The position numbers were made by a program, and so were the translations under genes. The notes beneath the pieces are model-generated. The model saw nothing but the letters and a program-made list of their open reading frames with translations, was not told the origin of the DNA and searched no databases. From the NCBI GenBank assembly GCA_021846285.1, contig JAJZCB010000009.1, positions 1-63,760 on the forward strand: DNA of 63,760 bases. The letters are read 5' to 3'. Origin of the DNA: Bacillota bacterium. GTDB taxonomy: Bacteria; Bacillota; Bacilli; Alicyclobacillales; SLC66. Of the stretch, positions 28,049-37,818 are shown in pieces. Within the stretch, counting starts at the first letter, position 1. Each line of letters begins with the position of its first letter.

Positions 28049-29821
28049 CTACTGCTCGTAGACCGCCACCCTGTTACGCCCACGTTGCTTCGACCCTACA
28101 TACATGGCGCGATCTGCGTGACGAAGGAGAGTCAACGCGGAGTCCGCCATGTCTGGATAAACGGCCGCGCCCAGACTGGCTGTAATGTGGATAGGAAGCA
28201 CGGCCATTTTACCGTTCGAAGCCAAGGTAATCGGGGATTCCGCGATTACCTTGCGCAAACGTTCCGCAATCTGCAACGCAACATCGATTGTCGCATGAGG
28301 TAAGATGACGGTAAATTCTTCACCGCCATAGCGGCAGACGATATCTCCCTCCCGAACTCCTTCCCTTATGATTTGGGCCACCCGTTTAAGGACTTCATTC
28401 CCGACCAGATGTCCGTAAATGTCATTGATACGCTTAAAGTGATCCAAATCAATGACTAACAGGGCCAAAGATGAACCGCCCCGATCTGCTTCAACGCAGG
28501 CATGCTCGATAGTTGCCTCAAAATATCGGTAGTTATAAACGCCTGTCAGTTGATCAACGTAACTCTGTTCCTCCGTCCGCGCAAATCGCCGCGCGTTCCA
28601 CAACGTGATCGCCGCCTGGTTCGCCAGAATCTGGACCATCTCCAGATCACGGTGAGAATACGCGCGTTTTTCAACGTGAGTCAACGTTAGCACACCCAAA
28701 GACTGATCCCGATAATGCAGCGGCACAGCCAATATAGATGTTCCTTGTGTGGGGGCCTTGGCGGCGCTCTCCTTTTCGATCTTCAATTCCTGAAGACGAT
28801 TTTGGACGAGAGTCGTGCCGAGCGCATAGGCGGTTCCTGTCACGTCTACTCCGCGCTCCACGCGCACGCGCAACATCTGCTCTTCGATTTCACGCGAGGC
28901 GCCTCGCACTGCATAAGGAACCAACACATCTTGCGCGTCGGGTATAAAAATATAACACGCCGTCATCTTGAACAATCGAGAGATACCATCCAGAAGCTCC
29001 CTAAAAACCTCATCTTCCCGCAGCTGAGTACTGAGCTTCATGGTCAAGTCGCTGATAATGGTGAGTTGCCTGTTGGCCAGCACCAAATTGGAATATAAAT
29101 TGAATATGTAGATCAGGCCGGCAAATGGAATCGAAATAACCACAAACGCTGCAGCCCCGTAAAGATGCTGCAACAAAATAAACAGTCCGGCAATCACGCA
29201 CTCGCCGATCAGAGACGCAATGTCCCATTGCAGTCCCAGATACCATAGACTCCCCGATCCATGCAGACGAGTCAGTAACATGGCGACCAGATAGTTGACA
29301 GCGAAATGGACAATGACGAACACCAGCAACGGCATCATCAACGGCAGCAGATTGTACGACAGATGAACGGGTACGCGAGCTCCAAACAGACCGTATGCAT
29401 TGGCGGCCAGTGTAGTCATCAGTACAAACATGATGGTATTGCCGACAAGTCGTCGACTGGTGAAGGTCTTGCCTGTGATCACGTTGCCAAGAATCCAGGT
29501 GGCAGAGACCAGAATGGCAGTAACCACAGCCCCAAACTGCAAAAACAGCGGCAGTTCAATGCCAAATGAGAATGAAAAAGAAAGGCTGCTGGTCTGATCG
29601 CCAAATCGGACTGGAAACACCTGAGCCAGCGTCAGCAATGCAGCATAGACAAGAAGCGGCAATAGTCTCATGCCGCCAAAACTGGGGAAGGGCTCCGAAA
29701 CCCCTGCCCACACAAGCGAGATCACTGCCAACATTCCCAACAGCGACAAGACTGTCCAGTAACGGTTCTTTTCGGCGAGCAACGTGATGAGCCCCCTCGG
29801 TACACGGAACACCGAACACAT
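28049..29821 (-). CDS. membrane diguanylate cyclase with GAF and GGDEF domains
   Basis: A 590-residue protein (577 if it starts at TTG 29782, which has AGGGGG nine bases upstream, unlike ATG 29821). About seven hydrophobic helices fill residues 20-245, followed by a GAF domain (about 265-420) and a C-terminal GGDEF domain. The active-site motif GGEEF is intact and is preceded by REGD five residues upstream, the RxxD product-inhibition site. It should make c-di-GMP from two GTP. The c-di-GMP riboswitch at 35.3 kb gives it a plausible local target. Confidence 0.9.
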   Translation of the reverse strand: MCSVFRVPRGLITLLAEKNRYWTVLSLLGMLAVISLVWAGVSEPFPSFGGMRLLPLLVYAALLTLAQVFPVRFGDQTSSLSFSFSFGIELPLFLQFGAVVTAILVSATWILGNVITGKTFTSRRLVGNTIMFVLMTTLAANAYGLFGARVPVHLSYNLLPLMMPLLVFVIVHFAVNYLVAMLLTRLHGSGSLWYLGLQWDIASLIGECVIAGLFILLQHLYGAAAFVVISIPFAGLIYIFNLYSNLVLANRQLTIISDLTMKLSTQLREDEVFRELLDGISRLFKMTACYIFIPDAQDVLVPYAVRGASREIEEQMLRVRVERGVDVTGTAYALGTTLVQNRLQELKIEKESAAKAPTQGTSILAVPLHYRDQSLGVLTLTHVEKRAYSHRDLEMVQILANQAAITLWNARRFARTEEQSYVDQLTGVYNYRYFEATIEHACVEADRGGSSLALLVIDLDHFKRINDIYGHLVGNEVLKRVAQIIREGVREGDIVCRYGGEEFTVILPHATIDVALQIAERLRKVIAESPITLASNGKMAVLPIHITASLGAAVYPDMADSALTLLRHADRAMYVGSKQRGRNRVAVYEQ

Positions 29822-32154: not shown

Positions 32155-33078
32155 TCAGAGGGAACGATCCCGGCCATCGTCAGCGTCACGGTTGGCAAAG
32201 TTGTTCTGCCACCGTGCCGATGCGGGTAACGCATCGGATCTGCCCACCACCAATCCGGCAATCGTCTTTAAACCAAGTTGGTCAGGAAGCCAATAGCTCG
32301 CACCAGGACCAGTGCTGAAATTGCCTGGAACGGAATGGGCCCGATACTTGACAAGTGGATGAACCATCGCGTAGGCCACCGCGATGTCTCGGTCAGACAC
32401 ATGCGCATCCAGCGTCCGCATCACCTGTGTGAACAGAGCGAACGGCAAGTGCGAAGCGATGGTGACTGCGCTTCTCAGAAAGCGCTCCTGGCGATGAACC
32501 CGCCCAATGTCCCCAAGCGGTTCATGCCGAAAGCGAACGACCGCGAGAGCCTGCCGCGGGTTAAGTCGTCGCCAGCCTGCCGGCAATGTCACATCGCCCT
32601 CAGGAGCCCATATCGCCTTGTCCACGTTAAACGGAACAGATCCCACCAATGCAACGGCCCGACGGAAACGGTCGAAATCCAAAAGCAGCACGGCATTTAC
32701 GGATAGTCCCGTCAACGTCTCCACAGCTCTGCTCAGCGCCTGCCTGTTCCCGTTCATATATATTCCATTGATCTTCATAAATCCAGTTCCAGTTTCAAAC
32801 ACTCTTGTATCCCGTGGTATATGCAGTGCGTCAACCACACCGGAACCACTCTGCGAAGTAAGCAGAACAAGCGTATCGGTATGGGCATCTGTTCGCCGAT
32901 CCCGACTGGAGCTTTCGGGGTCGCTGTCCAACCCGGCAATGAGCAACCCATAGCGAGGTTGCCCGTATGGACTGCGCATGTTGTCCGCCTGCGCCTGGGT
33001 ACTGTGGGGAAAATACAGCAAACACAACACGGCGACGACCGTCGGAACGGCGAAGCGCCGTCTGGGTGACGCAGACAT
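32155..33078 (-). CDS. LCP (LytR-CpsA-Psr) family wall-polymer ligase, second of the operon
   Basis: LCP proteins move lipid-linked polymers such as teichoic acid onto peptidoglycan. From ATG 33078 (AAGGAG eight bases upstream) the product is 307 residues with an N-terminal signal anchor (about 8-25). The catalytic domain shows DTLVLLTSQ, HIPRDTRVF, the KINGIYMNGN loop and VVRFRHEPLGDIGRVHRQER with the conserved arginines. It lies 43 bases after tagA, so LCP-tagA-LCP probably form one operon. Note that it differs clearly from the LCP gene at 33.9 kb. Confidence 0.9.
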   Translation of the reverse strand: MSASPRRRFAVPTVVAVLCLLYFPHSTQAQADNMRSPYGQPRYGLLIAGLDSDPESSSRDRRTDAHTDTLVLLTSQSGSGVVDALHIPRDTRVFETGTGFMKINGIYMNGNRQALSRAVETLTGLSVNAVLLLDFDRFRRAVALVGSVPFNVDKAIWAPEGDVTLPAGWRRLNPRQALAVVRFRHEPLGDIGRVHRQERFLRSAVTIASHLPFALFTQVMRTLDAHVSDRDIAVAYAMVHPLVKYRAHSVPGNFSTGPGASYWLPDQLGLKTIAGLVVGRSDALPASARWQNNFANRDADDGRDRSL

Positions 33079-33121
33079 CCATGCAACTCCTTTTCCTTTG
33101 CATGTCTGAGCAGGGCGCTGT

Positions 33122-33862
33122 TCAGTGCACCGAACGTGTCGAGTGGCGCGCCTCCATCCATGCTTCCCAGGCAAAGCGCGGCAGCGCCAGTTGGCGCCTC
33201 CACCGCCTTGGTTCTCTAATCAGCCTGTAGAGCCACTCCAGGCGGGCCCTCTGAAAGAGCACGGGAGCGCGTTTGACAGCGCCGCCGATCACATCGATAG
33301 CGCCGCCAACGCCGATCGCAAGCGGTACGCCAAGAATATCTTTATGCGTTGAAATAAACACTTCCTGACGCGGTTGCCCCAACCCGACCAGCAGAAGATG
33401 CGGACGGGCGGCCTGAATCTCCGCAATGACAGAAGCAGTCTGCTCATCTGTAAAGTACCCATGTGTCCCGACGATATACAGTTGCGGATAGCGGTTTTTC
33501 GATTTTTGCAAAGCCTGATCCAGCGATGTCTGCGATGCACCCAGCAAAAATACGCGCAGATTCCGTTCAGCGGCGTAGCCAATGAGCCGTTCCGCCAACT
33601 CAACGCCGGTGATTCGCTGGGCAACTGCCTGTCCATACCATTTCGACGCAATGACGATTCCCACGCCATCAGGCGTTATAAAATCCGCGCGCGCCAAAAC
33701 GGGGAGCAAGTTTGGTGTTCGACGGATGTTCATGACAAATTCAGGTCCTGCCGTAATGATCATATGCGGCTCGGCGTCAGCCAGAAACGAAATACACTGA
33801 TTATAAACCCACTTTTCGTCATTTGTTATAAAAGGAACACCCAGAACGGAAACTGTATTCAC
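33122..33862 (-). CDS. tagA: TagA/WecG-type N-acetylmannosaminyltransferase
   Basis: A 246-residue GT26 enzyme that adds ManNAc to undecaprenyl-linked GlcNAc, the second step of teichoic-acid linkage-unit synthesis. It has FITPDGVGIVIASK near 61-74, VELAERL near 86, the VFLLGAS strand and LLLVGLGQPRQEVFI with the GQPRQE signature. GTG 33862 follows AAGGGTG by about six bases; the frame also opens at 33871. It is flanked on both sides by LCP genes, which attach the finished polymer. Confidence 0.92.
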   Translation of the reverse strand: MNTVSVLGVPFITNDEKWVYNQCISFLADAEPHMIITAGPEFVMNIRRTPNLLPVLARADFITPDGVGIVIASKWYGQAVAQRITGVELAERLIGYAAERNLRVFLLGASQTSLDQALQKSKNRYPQLYIVGTHGYFTDEQTASVIAEIQAARPHLLLVGLGQPRQEVFISTHKDILGVPLAIGVGGAIDVIGGAVKRAPVLFQRARLEWLYRLIREPRRWRRQLALPRFAWEAWMEARHSTRSVH

Positions 33863-33914
33863 GCACAACACCCTTACTTACATAGGTTCAGACACCCGGT
33901 TGCAGAAATTCCCG

Positions 33915-34937
33915 TCAACCGCCGATTCCCTGGAAATCACGGCGCAAGCGGACTACGTCTCTTGCATCGACGTAAAAATACCACAGTCCGTCGCGCGGGT
34001 CTATACGATTTATACCATGCAGTGTGCGCATGTGCATCGAAAGATGCGCGACAAGGGCAATCCGGGCCACCGCTGAAAGCAACTCCCACTCAGACAAATC
34101 GCTGTGAATATGCGCAGGAAGGTGCATGACCGCATTGCCTACCCGCCACCACCGGGAAAATGGTACGGAGTTAACCGCCACAGCCCTGAGAAATTGCTGC
34201 TGACGTTCCATTCTCCCTGTGTCTGCCAATGTATCATGGCGAAATCGCACAAAATCCAGAGCTGTCTTGCCATTCAGCCGCTGCCATCCTGGTCGCAGAT
34301 GAATATGAGTGCCATCCGTCGCGTCATCGTAGTCAATCGCTTTTTTCAAATGGATGACAACTCCCCCGAGCGCATCGACCAGTTCCGTGAATCCCTGAAA
34401 ATCAACGGATACGATATGATCGACAGGAATGCCGAACGCCGTTTGGACCGTAGTCTTCAGAAGAGGCAAATCACCATAGACCAACGCATGATTGACCTTC
34501 GTATAACCATGATGGCGAATGTACAGACGCGTGTCGCGGGGAATAGAGTAGATGAGCGCCGTTTTTTGCCGTACCCTGAGGCGGACAAGCATCAGCGTAT
34601 CTGATCTTGCGACTTCTCCTTTACGTGAATCCGACCCCACCAACAGCCATGTCGCAGGGTCACGGTCCGGATATTGGATGGCTAGATCCTCCAGCGCGCT
34701 TCGCATCCACCGCTCATTGATTCGCGGCCCGCGCCGCAGGCTCGCGGCGCCTGTACGCACGTCACTCGCCGAGGCAGGCGACGCGGCAAAAGAAACAGAC
34801 TCTCTCTGAAAAGTCGCCTCCAGTTCCCTCTGCACATTGACGGACCCTGTTTCGACTGCCAGACATACCCTCCATGCGCCGACCGCAGCGAGTACAACCA
34901 AAGTCGCCACCCAGGAGTTCCAAGGACCAACCCGCAT
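33915..34937 (-). CDS. LCP family wall-polymer ligase, first of the operon
   Basis: A 340-residue LCP protein. ATG 34937 has GGAGGG eight bases upstream. A membrane anchor covers about 8-27, then a linker, then the LCP domain with LLVGSDSRKGEVARSDTLML, YSIPRDTRLYI, YTKVNHALVYG and FVRFRHDTLADTGRMERQQQ, including the conserved Arg and Asp residues. It is the first gene after the c-di-GMP riboswitch leader. Confidence 0.92.
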   Translation of the reverse strand: MRVGPWNSWVATLVVLAAVGAWRVCLAVETGSVNVQRELEATFQRESVSFAASPASASDVRTGAASLRRGPRINERWMRSALEDLAIQYPDRDPATWLLVGSDSRKGEVARSDTLMLVRLRVRQKTALIYSIPRDTRLYIRHHGYTKVNHALVYGDLPLLKTTVQTAFGIPVDHIVSVDFQGFTELVDALGGVVIHLKKAIDYDDATDGTHIHLRPGWQRLNGKTALDFVRFRHDTLADTGRMERQQQFLRAVAVNSVPFSRWWRVGNAVMHLPAHIHSDLSEWELLSAVARIALVAHLSMHMRTLHGINRIDPRDGLWYFYVDARDVVRLRRDFQGIGG

Positions 34938-35017
34938 AGCGCGCTCCCTCCGGCACCATAATCTCACGGGCTAGGATAACCAATAGGACGCCTGCACATG
35001 CCAGGGACGCAATGGAT

Positions 35018-35052
35018 CAAAACGCAAAGAAGCTGCCATTCTCGGCAGCTTC
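35018..35052 (-). terminator. second intrinsic terminator in the LCP operon leader
   Basis: Minus strand GAAGCTGCC, loop GAGAAT, GGCAGCTTC, then TTTGCGTTTT. It is a good intrinsic terminator 81 bases upstream of the LCP start codon, and well downstream of the riboswitch terminator. Confidence 0.75.
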
Positions 35053-35126
35053 GGGCAGTTTCCATATGGCGAATGTATCAGGCGAAACATATAGTGGCAC
35101 CTATCACTTGCGCAACTATATAAATG

Positions 35127-35195
35127 CGTAGAGTGGGCAAGTCTCGGGGGATTGAAATCCTAGGGGGGACTAGGGTTACACTCGCCCACTCTACG
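35127..35195. repeat. 69-base structured inverted repeat in the leader
   Basis: CGTAGAGTGGGC (35127-35138) pairs perfectly with GCCCACTCTACG (35184-35195). Inside, GGATT-GA-AATCC and CCTAG/CTAGG can form smaller stems. It starts four bases after the T run of the riboswitch terminator. It could be a second RNA element or a small inserted hairpin; I do not recognise it. Confidence 0.75.
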
Positions 35196-35198
35196 ATT

Positions 35199-35236
35199 GA
35201 AAAACGAGGGACTGGTTCCCTCCCGAACTATCCCTC
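35199..35236 (-). terminator. riboswitch expression-platform terminator
   Basis: Minus strand GAGGGA, inner GTTC/GAAC stem, TCCCTC, then GTTTTTC, starting about 15 bases after the aptamer. The loop sequence TTCGGGAGG (35227-35219) is exactly complementary to CCTCCCGAA (35350-35342) at the 5' edge of the aptamer, giving an alternative antiterminator pairing. Confidence 0.8.
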
Positions 35237-35250
35237 AACCGTCCGTGTTT

Positions 35251-35352
35251 GACCACTACCGGCAGCCCGGCCATCATAAACGCCATAGCGTCTTTAGATC
35301 CGGCGGCTTTGCGTCCGCATCTTTCGGTGCGTTTGCCTTGTTTCGGGAGGTC
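35251..35352 (-). ncRNA. c-di-GMP-I (GEMM) riboswitch
   Basis: The minus strand carries the core of the class I c-di-GMP aptamer in order: GGCAAAC, a hairpin with a GAAA loop (GCACCGAAAGATGC), GGACGCAAAGCC, CCGG, CTAAA, a variable hairpin (GACGC/GCGTT), ATGG and the tail CCGGGCTGCCGG, which matches the tetraloop-receptor and P3 pattern of known GEMM RNAs. GACC (35352-35349) and GGTC (35254-35251) can close the base. A strong promoter lies just upstream and a terminator just downstream. The next genes on this strand are LCP, tagA and LCP. Confidence 0.9.
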
Positions 35353-35363
35353 TATCTATACCC

Positions 35364-35392
35364 ATTGTATTCAATTCGACACAGATTGACAA
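35364..35392 (-). promoter_or_regulatory. promoter of the riboswitch transcript
   Basis: Minus strand TTGTCA (35392-35387), 17-base spacer, TACAAT (35369-35364). Transcription would begin near 35357, a few bases before the aptamer. Confidence 0.8.
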
Positions 35393-35419: not shown

Positions 35420-36523
35420 CTAATTGGTTGAAGTGTTCGACGGACCGGCTGGGGTCGTTGTACCCGTTGCGCCATTCCCGGAACCGGGCGCGGTCGATCC
35501 GTTTGCCCCGCTCGTGGAACCCGCGCCAGCGGTGCCGCCTGAGGTGGACGAAGGTTGCAAGACCGCATTCATAAGGTCCGTAACTACGATCGGATCCGTG
35601 GTTCCATCCGGATTCTTGGCTGGCGCCTGGTACGTCTGGCCCATCGTATACACCGTTCCTTGCGGACCTTTGAGTTCATACTGAATCTCCAGTGTCTGAA
35701 TCCCCGCGACATTGACGGTAAACGGCATTGGAGCCGCGCCTCCCTGGATCCAGCCTGTCGAACCAAGCGTATTTCCATCGCCTATGAACACCAGTTGCAC
35801 GGAGCCCGTAAAGTTGCGTGACAGATCGTCGACTGCGAATTGACCTGTAAGCGTCTGGTATTGACCATTAAGGGCATAGTCCGCACCGGGCAGTCGGGCC
35901 GTTTGACCCGCGCCGACGCCCCATTGGATCGAAAACTGCCCTGGGTATAACTGTCCCAGGACGGCCGGGGCCCAGTACCCTGTCAACTGCCCCTTCGGAT
36001 ACAGCGTGGTGTTTTTGAAATCGCCGTGCAGTGCGCTCGGAGTCAGCGTAAACAGTGGCATCCCGGATGAAATCGCCGGCGCCGTCGTCGCCTGAAAATT
36101 AACATTACCCTGACTGTCGATGCTTGGAATCAGATTTGTGGCGCCCTCATACTGCGCGTTATTGGCGGGTATTCCATAGAGTGCCTTGCCGTTTGTCAGG
36201 CCTGTTGGCATCTGGTGACCATTCAGGTACACGGAGAAAGGCTGCAGGCTCGCCCCTGCCCCCTGAACCTGCACCTCGGCCGGGCTGTTGACCCACTTCA
36301 CCGTGGCGCCCAAAGCGTGTCCGATCGTGCTGATCGGTACATACACGTTATCATTATAGATGAAGGGTTCTGCGCTGGCGGCCACACTCTTCCCATTGAT
36401 CACGAGACCAATGTTGTCATAGGACGCCTTAATTTGGCGGATGCCCACGCTGGCATAGGAAGCGCCGCCAAAGACCATCGCGCTGGTCGCAACCCCCAAG
36501 ATCATGCCCAGATACTTTTTCAA
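35420..36523 (-). CDS. secreted stalk-domain (copper amine oxidase N-terminal-like) protein 1
   Basis: A 367-residue secreted protein. A signal peptide (about 1-24, ending ASYAS) is followed by a stalk domain with VINGKSVAASAEPFIYNDNVYVPIS in parts, a type often linked to the surface of Bacillota. The middle has an NPCBM-like beta pattern (LTGQFAVDDLSRN). The tail is a Gly/Ser/Thr-rich low-complexity run from about residue 325. It follows a paralogue on the same strand, with a hairpin repeat between them. Ligand unknown. Confidence 0.85.
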   Translation of the reverse strand: MKKYLGMILGVATSAMVFGGASYASVGIRQIKASYDNIGLVINGKSVAASAEPFIYNDNVYVPISTIGHALGATVKWVNSPAEVQVQGAGASLQPFSVYLNGHQMPTGLTNGKALYGIPANNAQYEGATNLIPSIDSQGNVNFQATTAPAISSGMPLFTLTPSALHGDFKNTTLYPKGQLTGYWAPAVLGQLYPGQFSIQWGVGAGQTARLPGADYALNGQYQTLTGQFAVDDLSRNFTGSVQLVFIGDGNTLGSTGWIQGGAAPMPFTVNVAGIQTLEIQYELKGPQGTVYTMGQTYQAPAKNPDGTTDPIVVTDLMNAVLQPSSTSGGTAGAGSTSGANGSTAPGSGNGATGTTTPAGPSNTSTN

Positions 36524-36584
36524 CCTGTCGTCCTCCCGTTTGGTCCGTCCTGATAAAATACCCCAAAATACGATCCGTTCCTGC

Positions 36585-36690
36585 CAGCCGGATTCCTATG
36601 CTGTGCCTCTGCTCAGACACGGCTGCGCCGAACTCGCGACGGGCACAGCATAGGAATCCTGACGAGCGGGCTCTTTCATTCCACTGATGG
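36585..36690. repeat. hairpin repeat, copy 2
   Basis: A perfect 18-bp inverted repeat, GGATTCCTATGCTGTGCC (36590-36607) with its complement at 36642-36659. The loop holds CTCAGACACGGCTGCGCCG and the tail CTTTCATTCC and TGATGG, as in copy 1. In the outer stem, copy 1 has AACCG/CGGTT where copy 2 has ATTCC/GGAAT, so pairing is kept while sequence changes. It lies between the two stalk-domain genes. Confidence 0.85.
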
Positions 36691-36708
36691 TGTCTGTTCA
36701 CGGAACGA

Positions 36709-37671
36709 TCAGTGCACCAGAACGTCGACAAAATCAGCGTCCACAGTGGTTCCAGCGGGCACTGCCTGACCCATCGTATATACGGCGCCAGACGAGGTTT
36801 TCACAGAAAACGCAACAGTCAGGAGATGGACATTGCTGACATTAACCTCAACCGGAGTGGCGGTTTCACCCTTGGACATCCAGGGCGACTGGTACAGTTG
36901 CTGACCGTCGCCTGTAATCGTCAATTGCAACTGGTCGCTCGATCCAGATGCGTCATCGACGCCGAACAGGCCTGTCAGGGATGTATACTTGCCGTTCAGA
37001 TTGTAAGTGACACCGGGAACCTGCGCGTTACTGTTCGCCGGCGACCACAAGATAGATTTTCCGTTGCTGTTGGGATACGTCTGGCCGTTGATCTTCGACG
37101 GCCCATTGCTCCATCCCGTTATGGCTCCTGTGTAGCCGTTGCTTGCCAGAGCGTAGTCTCCATAATCGCGCACGTCCGGGAAGTTGACGAGCGGCATGCC
37201 AGATGCGGGGCCTTGTCCGATATAGGCGGTAAGCGTCGTGGGATTAATGTACAAAGGCTCATCGAGAACTGTTGCCAGAGCGACGGGCGACACATAGGAT
37301 TGACCCTTGTAGGAAAACGTATGTGTAGTGCCGTACCACAGGATCGGCGATCCGTAATAGACCAGGGAGCCCGATTGCGTTTGCAACTGTGCCGTTCGCA
37401 CGATGACAACCTCGTGCTTGCTCCCCACCCAGCTCACTTGGGCGCCCAGTCCATGCCCGATCGCACTGATCGGAACATACACGTTAGAGTTATAGATAAA
37501 CGGTTCCGCATTGGTGGGAATGACTTTCCCGTTCACATCGATCTTGATATTTGCGTAGTGGGCTTGTATGGGTTTGAGGCCTGTACTGGCCAATGTGATG
37601 CCGCCAAACACCATGCCGCCAATGAGCAGCCCCACTCCATAACTTGACACATAACGCAGTATGGGTTTCAC
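36709..37671 (-). CDS. secreted stalk-domain protein 2
   Basis: A 320-residue paralogue of the downstream stalk protein: IKIDVNGKVIPTNAEPF then NSNVYVPISAIGHGLGAQV. GTG 37671 (AAGGAAG upstream) gives a normal signal peptide (about 1-28); the longer frame to 37749 does not. An NPCBM-like segment (LTGLFGVDDASGSS) follows. It lacks the low-complexity tail of its neighbour. Confidence 0.85.
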   Translation of the reverse strand: MKPILRYVSSYGVGLLIGGMVFGGITLASTGLKPIQAHYANIKIDVNGKVIPTNAEPFIYNSNVYVPISAIGHGLGAQVSWVGSKHEVVIVRTAQLQTQSGSLVYYGSPILWYGTTHTFSYKGQSYVSPVALATVLDEPLYINPTTLTAYIGQGPASGMPLVNFPDVRDYGDYALASNGYTGAITGWSNGPSKINGQTYPNSNGKSILWSPANSNAQVPGVTYNLNGKYTSLTGLFGVDDASGSSDQLQLTITGDGQQLYQSPWMSKGETATPVEVNVSNVHLLTVAFSVKTSSGAVYTMGQAVPAGTTVDADFVDVLVH

Positions 37672-37818
37672 AGGCTTCTTCCTTTCTCCACAATACAGTT
37701 GGACGAATGCTATCATCATACTTGATAGACCATACGGCCACAATGGCAATAAAAAGCTTCAATCCCGCCGATTCCCCTGAACTGCAGCTATTTAGCAGTC
37801 ATTAAAAGTAGAAATCGT

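Follow-up and report, generated by a model that had tools for sequence, protein, structure and literature searches.

The leader of a wall-polymer operon in an acid-loving spore-former of the Bacillota combines two RNA elements. At its 5' end is a c-di-GMP-I (GEMM-I) aptamer, genuine by its covariance-model match and predicted to bind c-di-GMP. Downstream of it the leader carries a second RNA motif, a C-rich hairpin, which is strongly conserved, previously undescribed and overlooked in the preliminary description of this DNA. What is new is a member of the c-di-GMP-I class with an undescribed RNA motif attached, placed ahead of LCP (LytR-CpsA-Psr) and TagA genes.

A c-di-GMP-I aptamer at a conserved wall-polymer locus

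The window, by which we mean the whole stretch of 63,760 nucleotides that was analysed, contains the following genes and upstream signals:

28049-29821, minus strand: diguanylate cyclase, GAF-GGDEF (PF00990, E 5e-45)
32155-33174, minus strand: LCP protein 2, LCP2 (PF03816, E 3e-25)
33122-33871, minus strand: TagA/WecG/CpsF glycosyltransferase (PF03808, E 2e-58)
33915-34967, minus strand: LCP protein 1, LCP1 (PF03816, E 7e-40)
35258-35347, minus strand: c-di-GMP-I (GEMM-I) aptamer (RF01051)
35364-35392, minus strand: promoter P1, TTGTCA-17-TACAAT, 10 of 12 consensus positions
35420-36523, minus strand: CuA1 (Cu_amine_oxidN1 + NPCBM), a conserved upstream neighbour by Pfam and gene order

The preliminary description had reported a recognisable GEMM aptamer on the minus strand, a promoter at 35392-35364 and LCP-tagA-LCP genes downstream, and had proposed running the Rfam RF01051 model on this strand and searching relatives for GEMM ahead of LCP/tagA. 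These claims are borne out. The RF01051 match at 35347-35258 (minus strand) reaches 69.5 bits, with E 1.5e-11 and a gathering score of 35, and is full length, covering model positions 1-87 of 87; the promoter is present as TTGTCA-17-TACAAT, and Pfam confirms the three genes. LCP1 more likely starts at the ATG at 34937, which follows GGAGGGAG, than at the GTG at 34967. The RF01051 consensus aligns with AAGGCAAA, GACGCAAAG, GCTGCC, CGAAAG and TCTAA..TATGA in the window aptamer, which has the GNRA tetraloop with its receptor as well as the bases corresponding to G20, A47 and C92 of Vc2, which we take to be the numbering of the ligand-contact positions.

In this lineage the aptamer by itself is nothing unusual: 86 of the 101 genomes searched carry at least one GEMM-I aptamer, and the window's own genome has seven. 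Another of these seven (L006, G000:C156:7115-7200, minus strand) is preceded by TATATGTCGAAATATGTCGAAATATG, in which two perfect 0A-box cores lie at a distance of 11 bp, and has a PAS-GGDEF gene downstream. Among the aptamers at tagA loci, L103 (G006) and L107 (G009) have low scores (59 and 63 bits) and an A in place of the G at ligand-contacting position 20, like the cGAMP-type GEMM variants. L106 (G008), L108 (G010) and L001 were called as the variant c-di-GMP-I-GGC (RF03167) and not as RF01051.

The window's family consists of acid-loving spore-formers and includes Ferroacidibacillus organovorans and Sulfoacidibacillus thermotolerans. The gene order CuA2-CuA1-[leader]-(LCP1)-tagA, usually followed by LCP2, is kept in the 17 informative family genomes, the eighteenth locus being cut by a contig end; the exceptions are G006, whose locus is split over two contigs, and G002, where the CuA2 copy lies elsewhere. 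The tandem Cu_amine_oxidN1/NPCBM proteins (35420-37749 in the window, minus strand) stand ahead of the leader in nearly all of these genomes. The proposed search of relatives showed 11 of the 17 leaders to contain a GEMM aptamer, spread over 6 of 9 genera; five of these 11 carriers lack LCP1, so that the aptamer directly precedes tagA. No GEMM adjoined tagA at 34 loci of other Firmicutes; a single weak GEMM match in Tumebacillus flagellatus lies 3 kb ahead of tagA. The association is thus genuine, though restricted to this lineage. A literature search, from whose reach subscription papers mostly fell outside, found neither a paper on a c-di-GMP riboswitch with LCP/TagA genes nor a report of the C-rich RNA described below.

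The core of promoter P1 is probably a Spo0A site, judging from the known box. The 0A-box core TGTCGAA (35381-35375) lies 10 bp from, and in phase with, TGTCAAT (35391-35385) in the -35 region. This promoter layout is common to all 17 informative family genomes, with the 0A core perfect in 15 and TGTCGTA in the other two, and a Spo0A_C gene is found in 12 of 12 near-complete family genomes. The 7-mer TGTCGAA alone is common, occurring 13 times in the window.

A second RNA motif in the leader

The leader itself contains the following elements:

35342-35350, minus strand: 5' edge CCTCCCGAA, the putative switching strand
35251-35352, minus strand: candidate P1 stem that would close the aptamer, pairing GACC 35352-35349 with GGTC 35254-35251 and CCG 35346-35344 with CGG 35261-35259
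35219-35227, minus strand: anti-edge TTCGGGAGG, inside the T1 hairpin
35200-35236, minus strand: T1 hairpin, a candidate terminator with a U-run at 35204-35200
35127-35195, minus strand: C-rich hairpin with a 16-bp stem, apical CCTAG-TCCCCC-CTAGG at 35174-35159 and a second C-run (CCCCC) at 35150-35146
35088-35115, minus strand: tentative promoter P2, TTGCGC-16-TATATG, picked by eye
35019-35052, minus strand: intrinsic terminator T2 (hairpin 35052-35029, z -3.9)

The C-rich hairpin folds with a z of -7.5. A covariance model trained on 13 copies found the hairpin once, and once only, in 15 of the 18 family genomes, always ahead of LCP1/tagA; the copy in G011 was found even though it lay outside the training set. 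The same search returned none in 83 genomes outside the family, and no further copies were found elsewhere in the window's own genome. The covariation score is 0.550, compared with 0.263 +/- 0.026 for shuffled and at most 0.207 for slid controls, in an alignment fitted to the structure, which favours the score. Both sides had changed in 19 of 20 pairs of the aligned copies; the stem varies, and the invariant positions fall nearly all within the C-runs. Rfam 15 has no family for this hairpin, the only match being a chance one to mir-182 (16.7 bits, cut-off 71).

The hairpin and the aptamer do not always travel together. Three genomes (G004, G007 and G014) have the hairpin without a GEMM, and in G004 the hairpin follows directly on the promoter and ends in a U-tract, an arrangement like that of a stand-alone small-RNA gene. 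The three genomes of genus g4 are without both elements. A short way past the same promoter, their leaders (L102, L110 and L114) have a different short hairpin whose end reads AAGCTTTT or GGCTTTT.

Gram-positive bacteria have C-rich small RNAs, among them the staphylococcal RsaA and IsrR, whose C-runs could pair with Shine-Dalgarno sequences. The hairpin described here resembles them in having C-runs possibly capable of such pairing; it differs in having no Rfam family match, in being confined to the tagA operon and in being a predicted RNA. That its C-loops could pair with G-rich ribosome-binding sites is suggested by the sites themselves. Of 15 hairpin carriers, 8 have a GGGGG ribosome-binding site ahead of the first gene, compared with 15 such sites among 113 other genes (Fisher p 0.001, a value that ignores kinship and depends on first-gene starts picked by eye). 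The link is only suggestive, because GGGGG sites are common in the window's own genome (9 of 37 window genes) and because in the window species GGAGGGAG, which is not a perfect match to the C-run, takes the place of GGGGG before LCP1.

These data also bear on the possibility that the hairpin binds a protein or acts in cis on translation instead of being a trans-acting RNA, for example by pairing with the first gene's ribosome-binding site on read-through transcripts. The constant position of the hairpin beside the wall operon, at one copy per genome, and the higher frequency of GGGGG sites among its carriers both fit such a role. Against it, T2 separates the hairpin from the gene, the hairpin itself is followed by a U-tract in G004 and G009, and the ribosome-binding site of the window species is not a perfect match. 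We consider a cis role unlikely on balance; the probabilities that we attach to the various readings are, however, not mutually exclusive, and this one overlaps the others.

Possible routes from the aptamer to gene expression

The preliminary description had proposed that c-di-GMP acts through an alternative pairing between the 5' edge and the T1 hairpin. The exact complementarity on which this proposal was built, nine nucleotides between CCTCCCGAA (35350-35342) and TTCGGGAGG (35227-35219), is present in the sequence. Among the 11 homologues the 5' edge CCTCCCGA hardly varies, even though the P1 stem, whose pairs are likewise available in the homologues, uses only part of it; the 5' edges of the other GEMMs in the window's own genome are unrelated to it. 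A complement of the edge recurs about 24-34 nt past the aptamer, in the form CGGGAGG in six genomes and GGGA(N)GG in three g2 genomes and G009. G010, with GAGAGG opposite CCTCTC, provides the one clear compensatory change. The duplex reaches p 0.06 in the window sequence alone, and the duplexes taken singly give p 0.01-0.47 against shuffles (the G013 value used the wrong edge). These values are weak singly, so that the weight of the argument comes from the conservation of place and sequence. Constrained folding gave -49.0 kcal/mol for the 5'-edge:anti-edge structure and -45.3 kcal/mol for aptamer, P1 stem and T1 together, before any ligand energy; two folds within about 4 kcal/mol of each other fit a switch. 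The unconstrained leader fold, at -52.4 kcal/mol, also has T1 formed.

The other half of the proposal, that T1 is an intrinsic terminator, stands less firmly. T1 (GAGGGA...TCCCTC followed by GTTTTT, -15.9 kcal/mol) has its hairpin and U-run where they had been reported, but its fold reaches only z -1.5 against shuffles and its U-run is convincing in the window species only: GTTTTTC there corresponds to GTCTTTC in G001 and to GTCTAGC in G002, and the remaining carriers have no such run. Since the U-run is lost in these carriers, T1 is not a conserved terminator, and the putative ligand-dependent switch retains its conserved strands and near-balanced folds without a conserved T1 U-run to act through.

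A second terminator, T2, which the preliminary description had overlooked, lies between the C-rich hairpin and LCP1 and is stronger than T1. Some terminator stands ahead of the first gene in all 18 family genomes. It is a separate one in 16, three of whose stems were recognised by eye after the tail rule of the script had missed them; in G004 and G009 the C-rich hairpin has its own U-tract instead. A search for an anti-T2 pairing in the leaders of 15 genomes found nothing better than chance (p 0.18-0.94). A leader peptide over T2 was also considered and rejected: a short open frame starting near 35090 is present in G000 and G001 but broken in G002. A promoter past the hairpin would account for expression of the genes, but no sigma-A-like second promoter downstream of the hairpin rose above shuffles in any genome tested. 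One such candidate, P2, lies between the hairpin and T2 and appears conserved by eye, yet it did not beat shuffles (p 0.07-0.85).

One account of these elements is the one originally proposed, an ordinary cis-acting c-di-GMP-I OFF switch in which the ligand frees T1, transcription stops and LCP-tagA-LCP mRNA falls, with T2 now taken as leaky and the hairpin as a secondary cis element; the cis reading of the hairpin discussed above can hold together with it. No strong promoter other than P1 was found ahead of the operon, the aptamer remains beside tagA where LCP1 is absent, and in the window species T1 does have a U-run and the two alternative folds are nearly balanced. On the other hand, the T1 U-run is lost even among relatives of the same genus, and in nearly all genomes T2 stands between switch and genes with no visible anti-T2. 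For these two reasons control of the wall-gene mRNA by the switch counts as a candidate role only: a simple OFF switch is plausible, yet not the conserved output. As an explanation of the locus, we rate it as possible though rather less than probable.

The presence of two intrinsic terminators after the aptamer raises another possibility, namely that the aptamer is real but has little regulatory output. Such a case is described for Bc1 of Bacillus thuringiensis (PMC11218506): the second terminator masks the first, and the genes are unresponsive to c-di-GMP. Bc1 and the window leader both have a class-I aptamer whose long expression platform holds two intrinsic terminators in succession; the Bc1 terminators are 28 bp apart, whereas those of the window leader are about 150 nt apart with the covarying C-rich hairpin between them. 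Besides the common aptamer-T1-T2 layout and the precedent that an intact T2 hides the unwinding of T1 (PMC11218506), the absence of the aptamer from 6 of 17 family loci and the two carriers with A for G at position 20 would be in keeping with an aptamer of weak output. However, most carriers, in 6 genera, have kept the 5' edge and the ligand-site bases, which a non-functional aptamer would not keep. We regard this outcome as distinctly improbable.

Discussion

The reading that we favour, while holding it somewhat short of probable, is that the locus makes a leader RNA gated by Spo0A and c-di-GMP and carrying the C-rich hairpin, the wall genes being expressed by read-through or from another promoter. 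The promoter with the Spo0A-box core (35392-35364) would start a leader RNA of about 335 nt. When c-di-GMP is bound, the P1 stem would hold the 5' edge and T1 would form, making an early stop of transcription possible in the window species. When c-di-GMP is low, the 5' edge would pair with the T1 anti-edge and transcription would proceed through the C-rich hairpin to T2. The main regulated product would then be a C-rich, T2-terminated leader RNA exposing its C-runs, which might base-pair with ribosome-binding sites rich in G, in many relatives also with the site of the wall-gene operon itself; the LCP-tagA-LCP genes would be transcribed when polymerase reads through T2, or else from another promoter. 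This reading draws on the aptamer and its kept place ahead of tagA or LCP1, the conserved edge and anti-edge with their near-balanced folds, the covarying hairpin that only the family carries, the layout in G004, the terminator ahead of every first gene with no anti-T2 pairing found, and the GGGGG sites of the hairpin carriers.

The aptamer, the covarying hairpin, the terminator-like hairpins and their conservation are observed features of this locus. From them we infer which way the switch would act, that the C-rich RNA would be its output, that this RNA may pair with ribosome-binding sites and that Spo0A probably exerts control. Several observations weigh against a gated leader RNA. The T1 U-run is not conserved in sister species, so the aptamer's means of downstream control is uncertain in most carriers. 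As no second promoter rises above chance, P1 may be the only promoter of the operon. The C-rich hairpin is never found away from the wall operon, which a cis element would fit too, and the aptamer-less homologues show that it does not need c-di-GMP. Finally, the window species has GGAGGGAG rather than GGGGG before LCP1.

It is tempting to go one step further and suppose that a c-di-GMP riboswitch under a Spo0A-controlled promoter gates a new class of C-rich small RNA, which pairs with G-rich ribosome-binding sites and tunes wall-polymer attachment along with other genes, so joining c-di-GMP, the control of sporulation and the cell wall; in this strong form the idea is doubtful.

Compared with RF01051 riboswitches in general, the window leader is alike in aptamer sequence and fold, in its promoter-proximal place and in the alternative pairing with a downstream hairpin. 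It differs in its length, in the conserved C-rich hairpin and second terminator, in the wall-polymer attachment genes downstream and in the Spo0A-box core of its promoter. Another analogy may be found in EutX and Rli55, small RNAs controlled by B12 riboswitches that sequester the ANTAR protein EutV (PMC7602753). There, as possibly here, a riboswitch decides the synthesis of a downstream regulatory RNA; the predicted terminator T2 and the covarying hairpin are both present in the window leader. The ligand differs, and the RNA of the window has C-rich loops and a putative role. If the hairpin is the output of the switch, c-di-GMP would act via a regulatory RNA and not via an mRNA that encodes protein, as has so far been described for B12 riboswitches (PMC7602753). 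In acidophilic spore-formers c-di-GMP would then also be connected with Spo0A and with wall-polymer attachment.

The diguanylate cyclase said in the preliminary description to lie about 5 kb away is indeed there as a GGDEF gene, but its proximity is no evidence of linkage to the switch. The encoded GAF-GGDEF protein (28049-29821) retains its GGEEF motif intact and has an RxxD stretch resembling an I-site.
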